Positions 9,800 through 22,021 of a DNA stretch of 22,021 nucleotides are shown one piece after another. The translations under genes were made by a program, and so were the position numbers. This stretch comes from a virus, in IMG/VR virus record IMGVR_UViG_3300037485_000168, positions 1 through 22,021 of that record; one strand, written 5' to 3'. Position 1 is the first letter of the stretch, and each line of letters opens with the position of its first letter. Under the pieces are notes generated by a model. That model had not been told where the DNA came from, ran no database searches, and worked only from the letters and a program-made list of their open reading frames with translations.

Positions 9800-9903
9800 A
9801 TTGGAATTGGAATCTTATCATTATTTATTTTTCCCTTTTTACTTTTTGCTTATTTTGTTGGTGGATGTTTTTTAAATTAATTTATTTTTTATGCGCGTTC
9901 TAA
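9796..9903 (+). CDS. 35-residue hydrophobic peptide
   Basis: An almost wholly hydrophobic, aromatic peptide (MNWNWNLIIIYFSLF, then FCLFCWWMFFKLIYF) that would form one membrane helix. Its ATG is in an ATGA overlap with the previous stop (9796-9799), and its end overlaps the glycosyltransferase start by 13 bases. It fills the only gap between those genes. The AT-rich base composition would encode a hydrophobic peptide by chance, so the evidence is mainly positional. A holin-like role cannot be excluded but nothing else supports it. Confidence 0.4.
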   Translation: MNWNWNLIIIYFSLFTFCLFCWWMFFKLIYFLCAF

Positions 9904-10772
9904 ATTTATCAACAATGGACTTCGCCAACATGGCGCACGAAAATGCGAATTCACTTCGCGCGGTTGGCGTTGATTGTGTTGATTGGAGTTTTCATCGTCA
10001 TGTCTTTAATTACGAATCGCAATCGGAACAAAAGAAAATGTCCGATGTATTAAAGGAATATAATAATTTCGATGTGATTCAAATCTTTCATTCGGACGCA
10101 AATATCTTTCAAGCGGTCGCCAGTCATCCGAACAAGATAATCTATCACACCGGCACAAGATACCGGAACAACAAACAACGATACGATTCTATATTCAAGG
10201 GACAAAGAATTTTCACCGATCAATGTGAATTCTTATTGCACAACAAAGATTTCACGTACATTGCGCCGCACTTCACTTATGTTCAACCGCCGAAGATTAA
10301 ACACAAAAGAAAATTGATTGTCGGTCACTTTCCTTCGAATCCAATCGTCAAAGGAACGGACAAGATTTATAAAATGATTCAACCTTTCAAAGAAAAATTT
10401 GACTTCGTGATTTCGGAATCAAGAATTTCGCATCAAGAAAATTTGAATCGAATTGCGAATTGTGACATTTACATCGAACTATTTTCGCCGCTCATGAATG
10501 GCAATCCTTACGGTTGTTTCGGAGTGACGGCATTCGAAGCGACGGCGCTTGGTTGCCTGGTTGTCACAAACAATGTTAATCAACAAGCTTACGAAGATGC
10601 TTACGGACAACACAATTTTGTTATCGCAAACGATGAAATAAAATTTCACAATATTTTTAATGTTCTTGAAATCGATAACTTTGAAATGATTCGCGAAAAT
10701 TTTCACAATGGATTTATTGATAAACACAACATCAATGCTGCCGGAACAAGATTAAAAAATTTACTCTTATGA
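9891..10772 (+). CDS. GT-B glycosyltransferase (GT4-like)
   Basis: A 293-residue protein organised like a GT-B sugar transferase. The N-terminal Rossmann-like half has MRVLNLS at 1-7, FDVIQIFHSD at 60-69 and KIIYHTGTRYR at 82-92. The C-terminal half has KRKLIVGHFPSNPIVKGTDKI at 139-159, then YGCFGVTAFEATALGCLVVTN at 207-227, with E216 in the position of the GT4 nucleotide-sugar-binding Glu. The N-terminal part is short for the family. It overlaps the following GT2 gene by ATGA, so the two enzymes probably act on one glycan. Targets could be virion proteins, phage DNA or host surface sugars; the sequence does not decide. Confidence 0.82.
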   Translation: MRVLNLSTMDFANMAHENANSLRAVGVDCVDWSFHRHVFNYESQSEQKKMSDVLKEYNNFDVIQIFHSDANIFQAVASHPNKIIYHTGTRYRNNKQRYDSIFKGQRIFTDQCEFLLHNKDFTYIAPHFTYVQPPKIKHKRKLIVGHFPSNPIVKGTDKIYKMIQPFKEKFDFVISESRISHQENLNRIANCDIYIELFSPLMNGNPYGCFGVTAFEATALGCLVVTNNVNQQAYEDAYGQHNFVIANDEIKFHNIFNVLEIDNFEMIRENFHNGFIDKHNINAAGTRLKNLLL

Positions 10773-11389
10773 ATTATCCTTTGGTTTCAATTATTATTCC
10801 GTATCGAAATAATCGCGGTTATTTAAGCCAGGCGATTGAATCAATCCATGCGCAAAATTATCCAGGTGCAATCGAAATCATTCAGTCGAATCATGATGCC
10901 GGCGTTTCATTCAATATCAATCGCGGAATCGAAATGGCGTCCGGTGAATTCGTCAAGTATCTTTGCGAAGACGATTGGTTGCCGGTCAATTCAATCAAAG
11001 ATTCCGTCGAAGGAATTCAAGGTCATGACTTCATTCATGGAAAAGCTTACGGATATTTCAATCAAAGGAAAGTCGTTCCTTACGAACCGCCAATCAAATA
11101 TCCAACGCTTCAACAAAATGCGACGAAGAACGTTATTCATGGCGGTTCACTAATGTATCGGAAATCAGTATTCGAAAGACTTGGATTGTTCGATGAATCA
11201 TTGGATTGCGCCGAAGAACTGGAAATGAATCTTCGATGTCTTCAAGCTGGAATGTCAATCGGTTACGTTGATAAATTTTTGTACTACTATCGAAGACACG
11301 AAGAACAAAAATCACTTGGAAAGGGAGTTGATCAAAGCGTTCGACTTATTAAGATTAATAATATATATAATCGTTTTCGAACAAGATAA
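10769..11389 (+). CDS. family 2 glycosyltransferase (GT-A)
   Basis: A 206-residue GT2 enzyme. VSIIIPYRNNRGYLSQAIES at 6-25 is the family's N-terminal nucleotide-binding motif, LCEDDWLP at 65-72 carries the DxD-like EDD (67-69), and GGSLMYRKSVFERLGLFDE at 125-143 followed by CAEELEMNLR at 147-156 is the acceptor-side region with the catalytic-type acidic residues. It has no membrane anchor and ends soon after the domain (about 200 residues), so it is a minimal cytoplasmic enzyme. It starts in an ATGA overlap with the GT-B gene and is followed by the terminase genes after 16 bases. Confidence 0.88.
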   Translation: MNYPLVSIIIPYRNNRGYLSQAIESIHAQNYPGAIEIIQSNHDAGVSFNINRGIEMASGEFVKYLCEDDWLPVNSIKDSVEGIQGHDFIHGKAYGYFNQRKVVPYEPPIKYPTLQQNATKNVIHGGSLMYRKSVFERLGLFDESLDCAEELEMNLRCLQAGMSIGYVDKFLYYYRRHEEQKSLGKGVDQSVRLIKINNIYNRFRTR

Positions 11390-11405: not shown

Positions 11406-11804
11406 ATGGCATATAGTAAAGAATATATTAAGAATCTTGAACTTTGGGCAATCGAATACATTGAAGAATGTTCATCGCATAAAAAAGAAACGCTTTCAAA
11501 TAAAGGTGAAATCATTATGGTTATGGATAGACATATACCAACTATTGATTATTTTTTGAGGATATGGATTCCGATAATTCGAAAGGAAAAAGGAATTGTT
11601 CCTTCGACTTGGTATGAATGGTTGAATTGTGAGGACAAACTAAAATCGGAAACTATAAAAAAGATTGACGACCTTTTCAAAGGACTTGCATCCGACATCG
11701 TCGCCAATGAAGGCAAGGGAATATTCTATGCAAAGAACCGCCTTGGCATGCACGACCGCCAACAAATCGAAACGCGAACGGTTGACAAGTTCGACTTTGA
11801 ATGA
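11406..11804 (+). CDS. terS: terminase small subunit
   Basis: A 132-residue protein with the pattern of Bacteroidota phage small terminases: helical N-terminus, a WIPIIRKEKGIVPSTWYEWL helix-turn-helix-like segment in the middle, a KKIDDLFKGLASDIVANEGKG oligomerisation helix and the conserved C-terminal KNRLGMHDRQ at 109-118. It would bind the phage packaging site and load the large subunit. Its stop overlaps the large terminase start (ATGA at 11801-11804), the standard arrangement. The assignment rests on this context plus the motif pattern. Confidence 0.8.
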   Translation: MAYSKEYIKNLELWAIEYIEECSSHKKETLSNKGEIIMVMDRHIPTIDYFLRIWIPIIRKEKGIVPSTWYEWLNCEDKLKSETIKKIDDLFKGLASDIVANEGKGIFYAKNRLGMHDRQQIETRTVDKFDFE

Positions 11805-13003
11805 CTTTAATAAAAGGTTATAAACCGCACGACAACCAACGCGCAATCCATTCCGCCATTAATTCGGGAACGGAAAAGTATTTCGCTTTGAACATCGGAC
11901 GCCAGTTCGGTAAAACTTTGCTTGGCATCAACCAATTATTGTATTGGTCAATCAACGATCCTGGTTGCAAAATTGCTTGGATCACGCCAGTATATAAACA
12001 AGGGAAAAAAGTATTCGCCGAACTTGAAAAGGCGGTGGCGAAGTCTGGCTTGTTTGAATTCAATAAGTCCGATTTGAGAATAACCGGCTTCGGCTCGTCG
12101 ATTGAATTCTTTTCGGGTGAACGGCCGGACAACATTCGCGGAAATACTTTCGATTACATGGTCATCGATGAAATGGCGTTCACACGTCCGGAACTTTGGG
12201 ACGAAGTCTTATCGGCAACCGTTATGGTCAAGGGAAAAAAGATTATCTTCATTTCAACACCGAAGGGAAAGAATCATTTTCACCGATTGTGCATGCAACC
12301 GAACTACGATGAAAGGTATCGTTACATCCATTACACTTCGTACGACAATCCAATGATTGATTCAAGGGAATTGGACGAACGCAAACGTTCATTGCCTGAT
12401 CACATATTTCGTCAAGAATACATGGCCGAATTTCTTGACAACGCATCCGGCTTGTTTCGGAATGTCAAGGATTGCATCGGAACGGCGAACAAGACCAATC
12501 GCAATTATGCCGGCCTTGACATCGGACGCGCTGATGACTATACCGTTTTAACGATACTGAATGACAAAGGACAAATGATTCACGTTCAAAGGTGGCGTCA
12601 CGACGAATGGTCAAAGATAATCGATAAGGTTGCCGAAGTGATTCGCCAATATCAAGCGGTGACATTGGTCGAAGTCAACAATCAAGGTGACGTTTTCTTT
12701 GAAATGCTTCGGTCGTCTTGTCGCAACCTGGTCAATCCATTTACAACGACAAGCAAATCGAAGCCGGTTATTATCGAAGACCTGGCAATGTCATTCGAAC
12801 AAAAGTCAATATCGATAATTAATGAAACATGGCTTGTCGATGAATTGGAAAGTTTTACTTACATTTACAACGTGAACACCAGGAACGTCCAATATTCAGC
12901 ACCGAGCGGAATGCACGACGACGGAGTTATTTCATTGGCATTGGCCGTTCATTGCTTGAAGAACTTTAAACGAAAAGGAATATACCATGCAATCCGGACT
13001 TAA
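11801..13003 (+). CDS. terL: terminase large subunit
   Basis: A complete 400-residue packaging motor. ATPase: GRQFGKT at 33-39 (Walker A), YMVIDEMAF at 119-127 (Walker B, D123 with catalytic E124) and FISTPKG at 150-156 (coupling motif). RNase H-like nuclease: D240 in GLDIGRADDYTV, E291 in LVEVNNQGD and D373/D374 in MHDDGVISLA form the metal-binding set. It cuts concatemeric phage DNA and drives it into the prohead. The length is slightly short for the family (usually 400-550). It overlaps terS by ATGA; the next ORF begins 17 bases before its stop. Confidence 0.95.
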   Translation: MTLIKGYKPHDNQRAIHSAINSGTEKYFALNIGRQFGKTLLGINQLLYWSINDPGCKIAWITPVYKQGKKVFAELEKAVAKSGLFEFNKSDLRITGFGSSIEFFSGERPDNIRGNTFDYMVIDEMAFTRPELWDEVLSATVMVKGKKIIFISTPKGKNHFHRLCMQPNYDERYRYIHYTSYDNPMIDSRELDERKRSLPDHIFRQEYMAEFLDNASGLFRNVKDCIGTANKTNRNYAGLDIGRADDYTVLTILNDKGQMIHVQRWRHDEWSKIIDKVAEVIRQYQAVTLVEVNNQGDVFFEMLRSSCRNLVNPFTTTSKSKPVIIEDLAMSFEQKSISIINETWLVDELESFTYIYNVNTRNVQYSAPSGMHDDGVISLALAVHCLKNFKRKGIYHAIRT

Positions 13004-13175
13004 CTATAAAAGAATGGTTGTGCAACAATTCATCAAGGACAGGACCGGAAAGAATGTATTAATAATTTTTAATAAACCGAACGAAATGCAACGACATCTT
13101 TTTATGTTGGAACATGCTTATCAAATCGCAAAGGAACACTATGATAAAATTAAATTTACCAAGAACAATAAGTGA
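12987..13175 (+). CDS. small hypothetical protein after terL
   Basis: A 62-residue basic protein, predicted as a beta-strand pair followed by a long helix (EMQRHLFMLEHAYQIAKEHYDKI). The start may be ATG 12987, overlapping terL by 17 bases, or ATG 13014, 11 bases after its stop; both are in frame. It overlaps the next gene by 35 bases. Codon use agrees with the window. There is no recognisable domain. Where many phages have a portal gene after terL, here there is only this small protein. Confidence 0.6.
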   Translation: MQSGLNYKRMVVQQFIKDRTGKNVLIIFNKPNEMQRHLFMLEHAYQIAKEHYDKIKFTKNNK

Positions 13176-13848
13176 TTGCCGGCCGGATCAGTTGACGAAG
13201 TGGATCATGCTTGCCGATGCAATGAAGGAACGCAATGACGATGAATGGCTTGGAATGATTGAATTCCAATGTCAATTGCTTTCAATCTTTTCAGGGTTAT
13301 CAACCAACAAAATCAAACAAGGAAACATCGACGATGTGCAACAAGCTTCACGCGCTTTGCTTGATATGTTATCGGAATACAAACAAACTGAACCGAACGG
13401 CGTCGTCGAAATTGAAGGAAAGAAATATTATTTTTATAAAGACTTTCGATTCATCACGACCGGTCAAATCATTGACTTGAAATTGATTGAAGACATTGCA
13501 TCCGATCCATGCAAAGCGGTCGCGATTTGCTACATTGAACAAGATATGGATTATTGCCAGGAAGATTCGAAAGGACGCATCATCAATCCAAATGAAAATC
13601 GTTACAAGATATTCAAGGAACATTTCCCCGGCGACGAGTTCTTGAATTTCTTCGGTTTTTTTTTGCGCGAATACGAGATGCGGAGTCACGCTATATTGGC
13701 GATACAGACATTGAAGATGATGAAAACGAAACTGGAAATGGATCAAGACTTAAAGATTCGGAATGGTTCACTTGGACTTCTATCTTACATCGATTATCAA
13801 AAGAGATGGGACAAGACGTGGAAAAAATTGCAGCGCAACCTTACGTGA
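13141..13848 (+). CDS. tail-module protein, zero-frame product (possible tail assembly chaperone)
   Basis: A 235-residue frame from ATG 13141; the frame is open from 13114, but the 13141 start gives less overlap. Residues 1-175 look natural, with a helical start, a KYYFYKDFRFITTGQ strand region and an EHFPGDEFLNFFGFFL helix. At 13656-13664 there is a run of nine Ts. After it, the zero frame continues for 60 codons with off-pattern codons (CAG, CGG, ATA), while the -1 frame acquires typical codons and protein-like sequence as far as the next gene. The main product may therefore be the frameshifted form. The arrangement recalls siphophage tail assembly chaperones (lambda G/GT), which are made in two lengths by -1 frameshifting. 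The function is inferred only from this and the position. Confidence 0.6.
   Translation: MIKLNLPRTISDCRPDQLTKWIMLADAMKERNDDEWLGMIEFQCQLLSIFSGLSTNKIKQGNIDDVQQASRALLDMLSEYKQTEPNGVVEIEGKKYYFYKDFRFITTGQIIDLKLIEDIASDPCKAVAICYIEQDMDYCQEDSKGRIINPNENRYKIFKEHFPGDEFLNFFGFFLREYEMRSHAILAIQTLKMMKTKLEMDQDLKIRNGSLGLLSYIDYQKRWDKTWKKLQRNLT
13656..13701 (+). promoter_or_regulatory. candidate -1 ribosomal frameshift site (T9 run) and hairpin
   Basis: In the zero frame the codons read GGT TTT TTT TTG, containing the classical slippery heptamer T TTT TTG (13659-13665) and also T TTT TTT. A hairpin can be drawn just after it: CGCGAATA (13666-13673) with TATTGGCG (13694-13701), one mismatch, enclosing a smaller GCG/CGC stem. 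The spacer is almost absent, which is not ideal for a stimulator. A -1 slip enters the frame that ends in TAATG at 13908-13912. A homopolymer miscall (true T10) would equally explain it. Confidence 0.5.
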
Positions 13849-13910
13849 AAACTTTATTTTGGATGAATTACTTTAAGCTTGTTGACGAACAAAATCGCAT
13901 ATTACAATAA
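13665..13910 (+). CDS. -1 frame extension of the tail-module protein
   Basis: An 81-codon segment in frame -1 relative to the upstream gene, with no usable ATG until 13806, so it is reached only by slipping at the T9 run. It encodes an acidic linker (DTDIEDDENETGNG) and then a protein-like stretch: SEWFTWTSILHRLSKEMGQD, followed by VEKIAAQPYVKTLFWMNYF. Gln is only CAA and Glu mostly GAA, as in confirmed genes. The stop TAA (13908-13910) overlaps the ATG of the next gene as TAATG, the coupling used again at 14431. The predicted fusion is 256 residues. The W-rich helical C-terminus recalls the extensions of frameshifted tail chaperones. Confidence 0.65.
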   Translation, partial: ARIRDAESRYIGDTDIEDDENETGNGSRLKDSEWFTWTSILHRLSKEMGQDVEKIAAQPYVKTLFWMNYFKLVDEQNRILQ

Positions 13911-14431
13911 TGGCCGGTGAATTTGATTTCTTGGAAGGATTTGGAATTTCTACAAATGAAGTTCAAGAACCGAAAAACGTTTATCAAAAATTTTTGCTTG
14001 ATGTCGGAAACAAGGTAACGAAAGACTTATCCAATTTCATAAAGCAAAAGGCAAACAACACCGGCGGACTTGCTGCATCGGTTGTTTACTTTCCAACTGG
14101 TGCGCTTTCGTTCGAGATTCAAGCGGACGATTATTTCAAGTTCCAGGATCAAGGCGTCAATGCGGTTGGTTCAAGTAATCATGGAAGCGCATTTAGTTTT
14201 CGTTATCCTGGTGTTTCACCAAAAATGGCGAACGCAATTCAACAAGCTTACGGCGTAACGTCGTCGCATGCTTACGCGATTTCTTATCGAATCAAGGAAC
14301 ATGGAATCGCGCCGAAAAGAATTGTTGAAAACGTTTTGAACGAAAAGGTTCTTGACAAGATTGCAAGTGACTTGGCCGAAGTGACCGGCTTAATTTTTAG
14401 TATTAAATTTGAAAAATCAACACAAAAATAA
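13910..14431 (+). CDS. HK97 gp10-like / tail completion-type protein
   Basis: A 173-residue protein that resembles small neck or tail-completion proteins. It has a helix with KFLLDVGNKVTKDLSNFIKQ, a strand pair ending ALSFEIQADDYFKFQDQGVNA, then FSFRYPGVSPKMANAIQQAY. The YxxFxDQGV stretch in the middle is the part I recognise from gp10-like head-tail proteins. It starts and ends in TAATG overlaps, between the frameshifted gene and a large tail protein. A role at the head-tail joint or tail end is likely; the exact member cannot be fixed by eye. Confidence 0.6.
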   Translation: MAGEFDFLEGFGISTNEVQEPKNVYQKFLLDVGNKVTKDLSNFIKQKANNTGGLAASVVYFPTGALSFEIQADDYFKFQDQGVNAVGSSNHGSAFSFRYPGVSPKMANAIQQAYGVTSSHAYAISYRIKEHGIAPKRIVENVLNEKVLDKIASDLAEVTGLIFSIKFEKSTQK

Positions 14432-18559: not shown

Positions 18560-21502
18560 ATGGCAACAAAAGAAGCAGTTTTTTCACTACGCGTTGACAC
18601 CGGCAATTCGGTTCAAGACATTCAAAACGCGGATCAAGCGGTCAAAACTTTAAACAAGGATATTAAAGAAACGCAAACAACGGCCGCGGCCGGAACTGGC
18701 GTCAATAAAATGGCGACGGATCTTCAAGCATTGAACGCAAAGATTGAAGCCGGTGGCTTGTCGATGCGCGAAATGACCAAGGTCATGAAAGATTATCAAA
18801 CAATTGCGATTCAAGCCGGCGCAACTTCGCCAATTGGAAAGGAAGCAATGGCGAACGCTGCAAGATTGAAGGATCAAATCGGTGACATTCGCGCAAGAAC
18901 AACATTGCTTGCATCCGACACGGTTAAACTTGACACCGCAATGTCCGGATTGCAAACCGGCGTCGCCGTATTCCAAGGGATTCAAGGCGCGGCAGCATTA
19001 GCCGGAATAGAAAATGAAGACTTGCAAAAAACAATGGTCAAGCTTCAAGCAACACAAGGAATTATGAATGCCGTCAACACCGTGGCGAAGACTTTGAACA
19101 AGGATGCGATTCTTGGAATTCAAGTTCGAATCGGGTTGGAAAAAATAAGAAATTTTATTTTAAACGGAACAACGGCAGCAACCAAAGCGCAAGCCGCCGG
19201 AGAGGTTGCACTGGGAACGGCAACAGTTGGCGCAACGGCAGCAACGCAAGGCGCAACAATGGGAATGAAATTGCTTCGAATAGCAATGATTTCAACCGGA
19301 GTCGGCGCGTTGATTGTTGGGTTGGGGTTGTTAATTGCCAATTTTGACAAAGTTTCAGGCGCAATTACAAGCGCTTACGACCGCTTCAATAAACTTGGCC
19401 CGGTTGTCAAGACGGTGATCATGATAATGTTTCCGCTAGTTGGTTTGTTTGTTGGCATTGGGAAAGCGCTTGAAGCTTTTGGAGTTGTGGACGATAAAAC
19501 GACCAGGACAATGAAAGCGAATGCCGATGCGCGAACCAAAGCAATTGTAAAAGAACAAGACAAAATCATTGCCGCATCAACAAAAAAGCAAAAGGCGAAC
19601 GATGATTTTTATGACCACGAAATAAATTTGTTGAAGGCATCCGGAAAAGCAACGTACGACATGAATTTGTTGAAAGCACAATCACATTTGTCCGAAGGTC
19701 GTGTCGCCTTGGCAGCTTCGCAAGCAAAAATCAAAGGTTATGAAAACGAAATCAATATGTTAATTGCAACGGGCGACGCAAATAGCGACAAAGTAAAAGC
19801 ATTGAAAAAATCGTTGATTGATTCGAAAAATATCGCGATTGCGCAATCAAACGACAATGTCGCGACGGCGAAAGCATTGGAAGTCATGCAAGCCGAACAT
19901 AAAAAGGAACTTTCGGACAAGGAAACGGCACACAATAAAGATATGGCCGAAAAGTCAAAAGCGGCAGCAGAAAAAGAAAAAGCAAGAAAAGACGCGTTGA
20001 ACAAATCTAATCTTGAAAAATTAAAAACGCAACTTCAAAGAGAATTAACCGCGCTTGAAGAATCCGAAGATTTGAAGATTTCGCAAATGACGGAAGGTCA
20101 AACAAAACAAATCGCAACGCTCGAAGATACTTACGGAGATTGGCGAAATGAATTGATAAGAAAAGCAAGCGAAAACGAATTGAAGGCGCTTGATGAAAAG
20201 TTCGCGAAAGGAAAGATGACCGAACAAGAATATCGCAAAGAACTTGAAACCATTATGACAAACGGCGTCAAAAATTTGACAGATGAGGAATTGAAATTGA
20301 TGACCGAAAAAGAAGCGCAACTTGCCGAAGGAATTCGACGCGCAAAATTGACGGCGGAACAAAGAGAACTTGAAGATGTGACGAATTCATTCAAAGACCG
20401 AATCGCGGTTGCCGAAGCGCAAGGCGAAGAAGGGAAAGAAAAGGCCTTGCAATTGGTGGTTGATGAAGAAGTTGAAAAAGCAAAGATAAGAAAAAAATAT
20501 GCGGACTTGGCGCTTGAAGAAGCGGCGAGAGTTGAAGCGGTTCGACGCGAACGAACGAGGTTTTTGAATTCAATTATTGCAACCGATCAAGCAATAGCGC
20601 TTCAAGAATTAAACAACCAACAAGCCGACGCGCAAAAAGAATTATTGAAGCGCTTAAATTCCGACAATGTTGATGAAAAAATCACGCAAGAAGAATTTGA
20701 CGCGGCAATGATTGCGCTTGAAAAGAAGAAAGCGGAAGCAATCAAGAAAATAAATGTTGACGCAACGGCAGCGACAAAAGCAGCCGAAATAAAAGCGCGC
20801 GAAGAAGAATTGGCCGGAATTACCAAAGGACTTGAAACGGCACAAAAAGCGCTAAACGATGTCAAAATCGTCAATGACTTGTTGAACGAAATTGGCGCGG
20901 CGAGAATCAATAAAATCAACAAAGAACGTGACGAAGATTTGGCGAGTCTTGACGCAAATCAAGCAGCGGAATTAAGCGCCGTCGGATTGACCGCTGATCA
21001 AAAGACGGCCATTGAAGAAAAGTTCGCAAAACAAAAATTCGCGGTTCAACTGGATGCGTTCAACAAAGAAGACAAAATCAATCGCGCTAAATTTAACCGC
21101 GACAAAGCGATCAAGCTTGCGCAAGTTGGAATGGACACCGCAACGGCAATCGTGAAAGGAATCGCACAATTCGGGCCGCCACCTTCACCGGGTGGTATTG
21201 CTGCAATCGCATCGGCCGGAATTATCGGAGTGACGCAAGCGCTTGCAATCGCGAATCAAAAATACCAGGGCGGAACTGCGCCGACAATGCCGAGCGTTTC
21301 CGGTGGTGGTGGTGGTGAATCAATGGCCGGATCAAGTGGTTCTTCATTTACGGCAACGACGCCAACAACATCGACGTCAACAAATGGACTTTTGCAAGAT
21401 GCACAAACGGCATCGACACCGGTTCAAGTTTTCGTTTTGGAAAATGACATTTCATCTACTCAAAACAAGGTGGCCGTTCAAGAACAAAAGTCAAGTTTTT
21501 GA
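18560..21502 (+). CDS. tail tape measure protein
   Basis: A 980-residue protein with the tape measure plan: an Ala/Thr/Lys-rich helical N-terminus, hydrophobic segments at about 240-262 (MISTGVGALIVGLGLLIANF) and 284-303 (VIMIMFPLVGLFVGIG), long Lys/Glu/Ala-rich coiled coil from about 320 to 860 and a hydrophobic Gly/Ala/Pro stretch near 868-900 before a Gly/Ser-rich linker. The C-terminus VFVLENDISSTQNKVAVQEQ is the conserved end I associate with Bacteroidota phage tape measures. It sets tail length and may assist DNA entry. At roughly 0.15 nm per residue the tail would be about 145 nm. Its last 47 bases overlap an antisense gene. Confidence 0.92.
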   Translation: MATKEAVFSLRVDTGNSVQDIQNADQAVKTLNKDIKETQTTAAAGTGVNKMATDLQALNAKIEAGGLSMREMTKVMKDYQTIAIQAGATSPIGKEAMANAARLKDQIGDIRARTTLLASDTVKLDTAMSGLQTGVAVFQGIQGAAALAGIENEDLQKTMVKLQATQGIMNAVNTVAKTLNKDAILGIQVRIGLEKIRNFILNGTTAATKAQAAGEVALGTATVGATAATQGATMGMKLLRIAMISTGVGALIVGLGLLIANFDKVSGAITSAYDRFNKLGPVVKTVIMIMFPLVGLFVGIGKALEAFGVVDDKTTRTMKANADARTKAIVKEQDKIIAASTKKQKANDDFYDHEINLLKASGKATYDMNLLKAQSHLSEGRVALAASQAKIKGYENEINMLIATGDANSDKVKALKKSLIDSKNIAIAQSNDNVATAKALEVMQAEHKKELSDKETAHNKDMAEKSKAAAEKEKARKDALNKSNLEKLKTQLQRELTALEESEDLKISQMTEGQTKQIATLEDTYGDWRNELIRKASENELKALDEKFAKGKMTEQEYRKELETIMTNGVKNLTDEELKLMTEKEAQLAEGIRRAKLTAEQRELEDVTNSFKDRIAVAEAQGEEGKEKALQLVVDEEVEKAKIRKKYADLALEEAARVEAVRRERTRFLNSIIATDQAIALQELNNQQADAQKELLKRLNSDNVDEKITQEEFDAAMIALEKKKAEAIKKINVDATAATKAAEIKAREEELAGITKGLETAQKALNDVKIVNDLLNEIGAARINKINKERDEDLASLDANQAAELSAVGLTADQKTAIEEKFAKQKFAVQLDAFNKEDKINRAKFNRDKAIKLAQVGMDTATAIVKGIAQFGPPPSPGGIAAIASAGIIGVTQALAIANQKYQGGTAPTMPSVSGGGGGESMAGSSGSSFTATTPTTSTSTNGLLQDAQTASTPVQVFVLENDISSTQNKVAVQEQKSSF

Positions 21503-22021
21503 TCCATTGACCGCCGGCGGAATTTATGAATTCATCCGATGAAGAAAAGCATCCGTAATCGCGAAGGAACAATTCGGCCTTCGCAATATCACCGGTTGAA
21601 AGCTTCAAGTTTGTTCCAGGTCGAATCTTTTTCGGTTGGTTGACATTCAAATAAATTGACTTGATAAAATGGTTGTCACTTTGCCAATTGACTTTGTCGA
21701 AAGTTTTGATTAATTTTTTCGAATCCATTAAGACCGGCGAATGTGTTTCGAAGTTATAAATTGAATGACCGAAATGTTTCAAGAATTCAATCGAATTTTT
21801 GCAAGCGATTTGATAGTGACCAGGATGTTTTGGATTGATAATTAATTCACCGTTATAAATTGCAATATCGGCGCGAAGTTTTGGAGTGACAAAGAAGTCA
21901 TCGTTCATGTAAATGAATTGACCGCCATGTTCACGCGCAAAGGTCAACATTTTATTTGTGACATCGACACCGCGAATGTTGGAAAAAACTTTGCAAGGAA
22001 TGTTTTGAGCGCCGGCGATTT
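21456..22021 (-). CDS. Stealth-like (capsule-type) sugar transferase, 5' end beyond window
   Basis: The minus frame is open from the window edge to TAG at 21458-21456, giving 187 visible residues; the first in-window Met is only internal. GGQFIYMNDDFFVTP at visible residues 32-46 matches the central FxYxNDDxFL motif of the Stealth/capsular polysaccharide phosphotransferase group and similar phage proteins. IYNFETHSPVLMD at 87-99 and WQSDNHFIKSIYLN resemble the following conserved regions. These enzymes transfer sugar-phosphates to surface glycans. It is the only minus-strand gene here and converges on the tape measure gene, overlapping its end by 47 bases. No linked terminator is visible. Confidence 0.7.
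   Translation of the reverse strand, partial: IAGAQNIPCKVFSNIRGVDVTNKMLTFAREHGGQFIYMNDDFFVTPKLRADIAIYNGELIINPKHPGHYQIACKNSIEFLKHFGHSIYNFETHSPVLMDSKKLIKTFDKVNWQSDNHFIKSIYLNVNQPKKIRPGTNLKLSTGDIAKAELFLRDYGCFSSSDEFINSAGGQWIKNLTFVLERPPCFE

Follow-up and report, generated by a model that had tools for sequence, protein, structure and literature searches.

One gene in the viral DNA analysed here (22,021 bases from IMG/VR, all of which is called the window below) almost certainly gives two proteins, judging from its sequence and from those of its relatives. With moderate confidence, we think that the second protein is produced by a -1 ribosomal frameshift at U_UUU_UUU and that the products form a probable tail assembly chaperone pair. 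That is, most ribosomes would keep the zero frame and make a protein of 235 aa, and a minority would slip back by one base at U_UUU_UUU, inside a run of nine U's, as a pair of Phe tRNAs shifts its pairing to the -1 frame. The slipped product would have 256 aa, consisting of 174 residues shared with the short product and 82 further residues, which would form a different helical C-terminus and end at the next gene. The positions of these features are listed in Table 1.

Table 1. Features of the two-product gene and its neighbours in the window
Feature	Position	Strand	Basis or remark
Terminase large subunit	11801..13003	+	Matches to PF03237 and phrog_2
Small gene in the interval between the terminase and the two-product gene	12987..13175	+	L214 has a 56-aa gene of similar appearance in this place
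Zero-frame gene, short (G-like) product, 235 aa	13141..13848	+	N-part homologous to the PHROG_32199 family, profile-profile
T9 slippery run	13656..13664	+	Codons GGT TTT TTT TTG at 13654-13665
Heptamer T_TTT_TTT (X_XXY_YYZ)	13656..13662	+	In register family-wide; one relative has A_AAT_TTT instead
Overlapping heptamer T_TTT_TTG	13659..13665	+	Window's clade; in other members only if TTG follows
-1-frame extension (T-like), 82 codons and TAA if the shift is at T_TTT_TTT	13662..13910	+	Relatives; helical model
Dual-frame stretch, about 60 codons	13666..13848	+	Both frames read
Next gene, overlapping the -1-frame stop (TAATG)	13910..14431	+	Place of the relatives' neck/tail-completion type gene
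Presumed tape measure, 980 aa	18560..21502	+	Four genes after 13910; length and composition only

The gene and its surroundings in the window

The start of the gene is best placed, by alignment of relatives, at the ATG at 13141, which gives the product sizes stated above. An upstream ATG at 13114 is a possible alternative and is not conserved. A preliminary description of this DNA had reported a hidden -1 frame past the T9 run, and its coordinates proved right, from the codons of the run and the end of the zero frame to the -1 frame itself, which is open from 13596 to 13910 and whose TAA (13908-13910) overlaps the ATG of the next gene. It was also correct in that the -1 frame has no usable ATG before 13806: the first ATG stands there, and neither GTG nor TTG occurs ahead of it. 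The bases after 13848, which it had taken as unused, are in fact read, since 13849-13910 belongs to the -1 frame only and the preceding stretch from 13666 to both frames. The slippery sequence it named, T TTT TTG, is present, but the heptamer that is kept family-wide lies one codon upstream of it. T9 is the sole A/T run of at least 8 in the 22-kb window, and the first-order Markov expectation is about 8.5 runs of at least nine.

The extension begins with an acidic linker, which is followed by a helical WFxWT...HRLSKE...QPYVKTLFWMNYFK domain. AlphaFold models of the products of the gene were poor, and a fold search with the extension found nothing. In the N-part, residues 87-112 (window 13399-13476) show the pattern GxVxIxGKxYxFxxDFxxxTTGQII, which resembles choline-binding/CROP-type repeats with E values of about 1e-4 to 0.03. 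The weak Pfam and PDB matches cover this one short motif only, so homology to such repeats was not accepted, and the likeness is probably motif convergence.

In the relatives examined, the gene follows the terminase and opens a tail-side cluster. The order of genes in long relatives is TerS, TerL, a small gene, the two-product gene, a gene of neck/tail-completion type, large tail proteins and a long gene presumed to be the tape measure, beyond which lie a protease, a putative capsid protein and the portal; the names capsid, neck and tape measure in these genomes are presumptive. The next gene of the window is, by its position, presumably of the neck/tail-completion type. Six members of the distant clade (L261, L317, L263, L300, L311 and L214) carry an extra gene of ~155 aa between the two-product gene and the neck-type gene, and the window's clade is without it. 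The small gene that precedes the two-product gene (56-62 aa) looks alike in distant clades (in L214 at 2809-2979), with the shared pattern ..IxFNxPxxxxxHxxMLxxAxxIAxxxY... No family match was found for it in either place, and it may encode a conserved accessory protein of packaging or of the tail. By eye, glycosyltransferase-like genes stand on both sides of the late region (9891-11389 and 21456-21950). The ends of a 32-kb relative contig, G001 (L178/L179), repeat each other, with the same genes near 120-1124 and 30723-31856, which suggests that the genome is terminally redundant or circularly permuted; the window corresponds to about two thirds of a G001-like genome.

Conservation of the run and of both frames

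When viral contigs were scanned with the N-part, 22 relatives with 58-92% identity were obtained. All 22 have exactly T9, a zero frame open for ~60 further codons and an open -1 frame, and the neighbouring genes are kept too. Thus, the run and both frames are conserved in relatives; the preliminary description had made its proposal depend on the conservation of the extension frame. Profile scans gave 69 distinct sequences of the same clade via the extension and 59 via the zero frame, with T9 in all of them. Among 57 distinct members, the run was preceded by the codon GGT, GCT, AGT or AAT, that is, codons of four amino acids that always have T at the wobble position. It was followed by TTT TTT in 57/57 members and then by TTG, TTA or TTC. 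A tree of 99 members placed 0 changes at the free positions of the run, compared with 6-18 changes at the wobble positions of other conserved Phe codons and 2-10 at the first bases of other Leu codons. The conservation of T9 in the window's clade is far beyond chance. The Leu codon after the run also always opens with T (CTN in 0/98 members of the clade), whereas CTN makes up 47% of the Leu codons elsewhere in the gene.

The zero frame continues for 63-64 codons past the run in 95/99 members of this clade. Soon after the run there is clear constraint: one Tyr codon read in the -1 frame is TAT in 99/99 members, and TAC would alter an Ile of the zero frame. The stop of the zero frame is likewise preserved through the use of GTR for Val in the -1 frame (93/96). 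Within the overlap, all three codon positions share in the divergence, unlike in the flanking single-frame regions. For the far zero-frame tail, position-wise divergence and codon recoding are only mildly informative on selection, and constraint on the middle of this tail appears weak or unproven. Past the slip site, the short product usually has a tail of about 60 codons to itself, so that one DNA stretch encodes two alternative C-termini. In one of the 22 close relatives (L018, 1803-2580), an indel lies about 35 codons past T9, and the zero frame then enters the -1-frame domain; this is possibly a natural constitutive fusion, or else an assembly error.

More distant relatives were reached through a 177-aa protein of the 32-kb relative, which matched the cultured Nonlabens phages P12024S and P12024L. 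In P12024S, gp38 stands directly after the terminase and has T9 at 23578-23586, and its -1 frame runs to 23830 and encloses the annotated gp39. P12024S gp38 defines PHROG_32199 ('unknown function'), gp39 is PHROG_38404, and at least 558 relatives of gp38 type were confirmed in one scan of viral contigs. The N-part of the window's clade is homologous to the PHROG_32199 family in a profile-profile comparison (hhalign A3 vs A6, prob 96.6%, E 4.8e-10), and no direct HMMER match of the window sequence to PHROG_32199 was obtained. The search of phage protein families suggested in the preliminary description linked the N-part to this family and to no named one. Between the two extensions the match was weak (hhalign A4 vs A7, P = 0.002, prob 14%), in the expected register; in the members of the distant clade that we examined, the extension reads FFLxFRxRL...KWGWYxSIYALAxGD...TKL...LxFLxFEKxK. 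P12024S thus shares with the window the homologous N-part, T9 at the equivalent place, the -1 extension and the position after the terminase. It differs in that its annotation gives two hypothetical proteins and no frameshift, and in that its zero-frame tail past the run has ~25 residues only. The A6 profile found no member in 289 bacterial genomes from the phylum to which the L177 genome belongs. A primase resembles those of Flavobacterium, Polaribacter and Maribacter phages. Most relatives are metagenomic, and we infer their hosts from the Nonlabens phages and from this likeness of the primase.

In an HMM census via the N-part (n=224 distinct sequences), 201 members had T9, 22 had T10 and 1 had T12, and no shorter run occurred. 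The register was xxT TTT TTT TTG in the window's clade and mostly xTT TTT TTT TAY in the other; outside the window's clade, the codon after the run is mostly TAY or TGG. The scan based on the extension (n=79 distinct) gave T9 in 70 members, T10 in 7, and 2 exceptions. The two sets partly overlap, so that the total of about 300 sequences is approximate; the second frame is retained in all of them. One exception, L442, has GGT TTT TTT TAC, that is, T8, and retains T_TTT_TTT. The other, L425/L472, lacks the T-run and has GTA AAT TTT ATA, in which the canonical A_AAT_TTT stands in the exact register; this non-T exception is one contig, and its gene is otherwise that of a normal member. The broken N-part of L425 was suspected to be a frameshift error, and its cause is a scaffold gap of N's. 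Two further candidates for members without T9, L338 and L358, were dropped when their pattern matches were found to fall outside the gene. A run of at least 8-9 A/T is therefore present in every N-part member, and the extension members include one with T8 and one without a run. Since both exceptions keep the heptamer in register, the family invariant, as read from the alignments, is the tandem-slippage heptamer X_XXY_YYZ in one register, and nine T's are kept by nearly every member. An in-register X_XXY_YYZ conserved together with two open frames, as expected of -1 programmed frameshift genes, is present here.

Slippage by the ribosome or by RNA polymerase

Three simple readings of the two frames can be weighed against these data. 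If the real run were T10, the gene would be one ordinary fused gene; homopolymers are error-prone on some platforms, and the fused protein would make a sensible single protein. However, runs that separate the frames occur in about 300 distinct sequences from independent metagenomes and from the cultured P12024S/L, and the zero-frame codons past the run are constrained as described above. The single gene with ten T's, which had been raised in the preliminary description, has no counterpart among them: a run length that fuses the frames in the DNA was found in 0 of roughly 300 distinct sequences, and L018 alone has its later indel. The recurrence of T9 in independent assemblies and in two cultured genomes excludes a sequencing error, and the probability that we leave to it is negligible. 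Nine-base runs are also generally slippery in replication, and phase variation, in which the run length changes in the DNA and switches the extension on and off genetically, might be imagined. But no relative has a frame-fusing length at the DNA level, and the members with T10 and T12 keep the -1 relation, meaning that their extra T's came by substitution or by a codon-sized change. We consider phase variation extremely improbable. Hardly more probable is that the extension is a separate gene, translated alone by re-initiation or from an internal start, as the annotation of P12024S implies by placing the start of gp39 at an ATG that overlaps the stop of gp38. In 57 relatives, none of the codons ATG, GTG and TTG occurs ahead of residue 43 of the -1 frame, and in five of them none occurs up to residue 60, although the extension is conserved from its first residues; gp39 as annotated would lose the conserved start FFLSFRxRL. 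The absence of a start codon before the conserved part excludes a separate gene. Some relatives have a -1-frame TAG immediately next to the run, and there -1 reading can begin only at the run.

The same two proteins would also be made if RNA polymerase slipped on T9 and put one extra U into some of the transcripts, and the messages with ten U's were read straight into the extension. A/T runs of nine are a documented substrate of transcriptional slippage (PMC5009743, PMC4256274), which is quoted at 15-55% for Shigella mxiE and others (PMC4256274). Such slippage consists mostly of single-nucleotide insertions, which become exponentially more frequent as A/T runs lengthen, and the RNA:DNA hybrid spans about 9 bases (PMC5574713). 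Like the genes known to use such slippage (Shigella mxiE/spa13 and tssM; PMC4256274, PMC5009743), the gene studied here has an A/T run of at least 9, two length variants and no RNA stimulator. Those genes are not phage tail genes, and a further difference is that here the exceptions without nine T's retain the in-register heptamer. At first the case for the polymerase was strong, considering at least nine T's in 224/224 N-part members across two registers and the tree. A single inserted base leads into exactly the -1 frame, as is required here, and the window has no other run of at least 9. No stimulator was identified downstream: 21 aligned relatives gave no consensus RNA structure, and in single-sequence folding 7/8 were no better than shuffles, with z-scores near 0 except for L143. 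The run also exceeds what a heptamer needs, as the T that opens the next Leu codon is kept though CTN would be silent in both frames, and this invariable T is better explained by a length requirement of nine.

This case was weakened by the two exceptions found through the extension, which have fewer than nine T's. In addition, the conserved amino acids (V/L/I before the run and Y/W/L/F after it) explain most of the ninth T family-wide, and the counterparts in lambda and P2 are described as ribosomal. The annotated -1 site of P2, GG[T_TTT_TTG], has six T's only (NC_001895), meaning that a short T-run suffices. Taken together, we regard the transcriptional reading as the less likely one, though still a serious rival. 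The invariant heptamer favours -1 ribosomal frameshifting, and tandem slippage of two tRNAs at U_UUU_UUU would account both for the invariant and for the two exceptions. Stimulatory RNA structure is dispensable in some known cases of -1 frameshifting. It seems likelier that the ribosome slips rather than RNA polymerase, and both may contribute in the members with T9.

A further reading, which we hold to be unlikely, is that a stretch of ~180 bp usually encodes two alternative functional chaperone C-termini mainly by polymerase slippage on a near-obligatory T9, and that the members that lost the run substituted a ribosomal heptamer. If this were true, the gene family would offer a natural series from transcriptional to ribosomal frameshifting.

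Probable role of the products and meaning for the phage family

The gene has, as a conserved sequence architecture, a short product and a frameshifted longer one. A frameshift gene with two products at the head of the tail genes looks like a chaperone gene, and from this architecture and position we think it quite probable that the products are a tail assembly chaperone of the G/GT type. By analogy with lambda G/GT and P2 E/E+E', the common part would bind the tape measure; the -1 extension would recruit tail-tube subunits, in a ratio set by the slip frequency. The lambda G/GT logic invoked in the preliminary description thus fits as a way of working, and the chaperone identity is presumed from architecture and position. 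No match to Pfam, NCBIfam or a named PHROG was found for the gene. Homology to lambda G/T or P2 E/E' was not detected by comparing profiles with single sequences, which is a weak test for families that diverge so strongly, and membership in the lambda or P2 families is not demonstrated.

As in lambda gpG/gpGT (NC_001416), there is one start, two products and a -1-frame C-terminal extension that ends at the next gene. The -1 shift of lambda is of low frequency, with a ratio of about 30:1 (PMC5009743). In contrast to lambda, in which G sits between the major tail gene and the tape measure, the gene stands after the terminase across the family, with the presumed tape measure several genes downstream; the preliminary description had noted this unusual place correctly. 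The annotated overlap of the G and T frames in lambda is about 19 bases, compared with about 60 codons here. The likeness to P2 gpE/gpE+E' (NC_001895) lies in a -1 shift on a T-run within a tail gene (GG[T TTT TTG] beside GGT TTT TTT TTG in the window) and in a short upstream product. P2 differs in having six T's instead of nine, a zero frame that stops about 6 codons past the site, and a place directly upstream of the tape measure. A long overlap with an alternative C-terminus is thus unlike both lambda and P2.

We found no earlier report of this frameshift in the open-licence literature. The phage family is large and apparently common, the gene is without an assigned function in Pfam, NCBIfam and PHROGs, and the frameshift is unannotated in the cultured members. 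Its recognition would allow both the gene and the extension to be named in annotations, and the tail cluster to be located in phages of this type that are otherwise unreadable. P12024S/L on Nonlabens offers a cultured system for telling ribosomal from transcriptional slippage.
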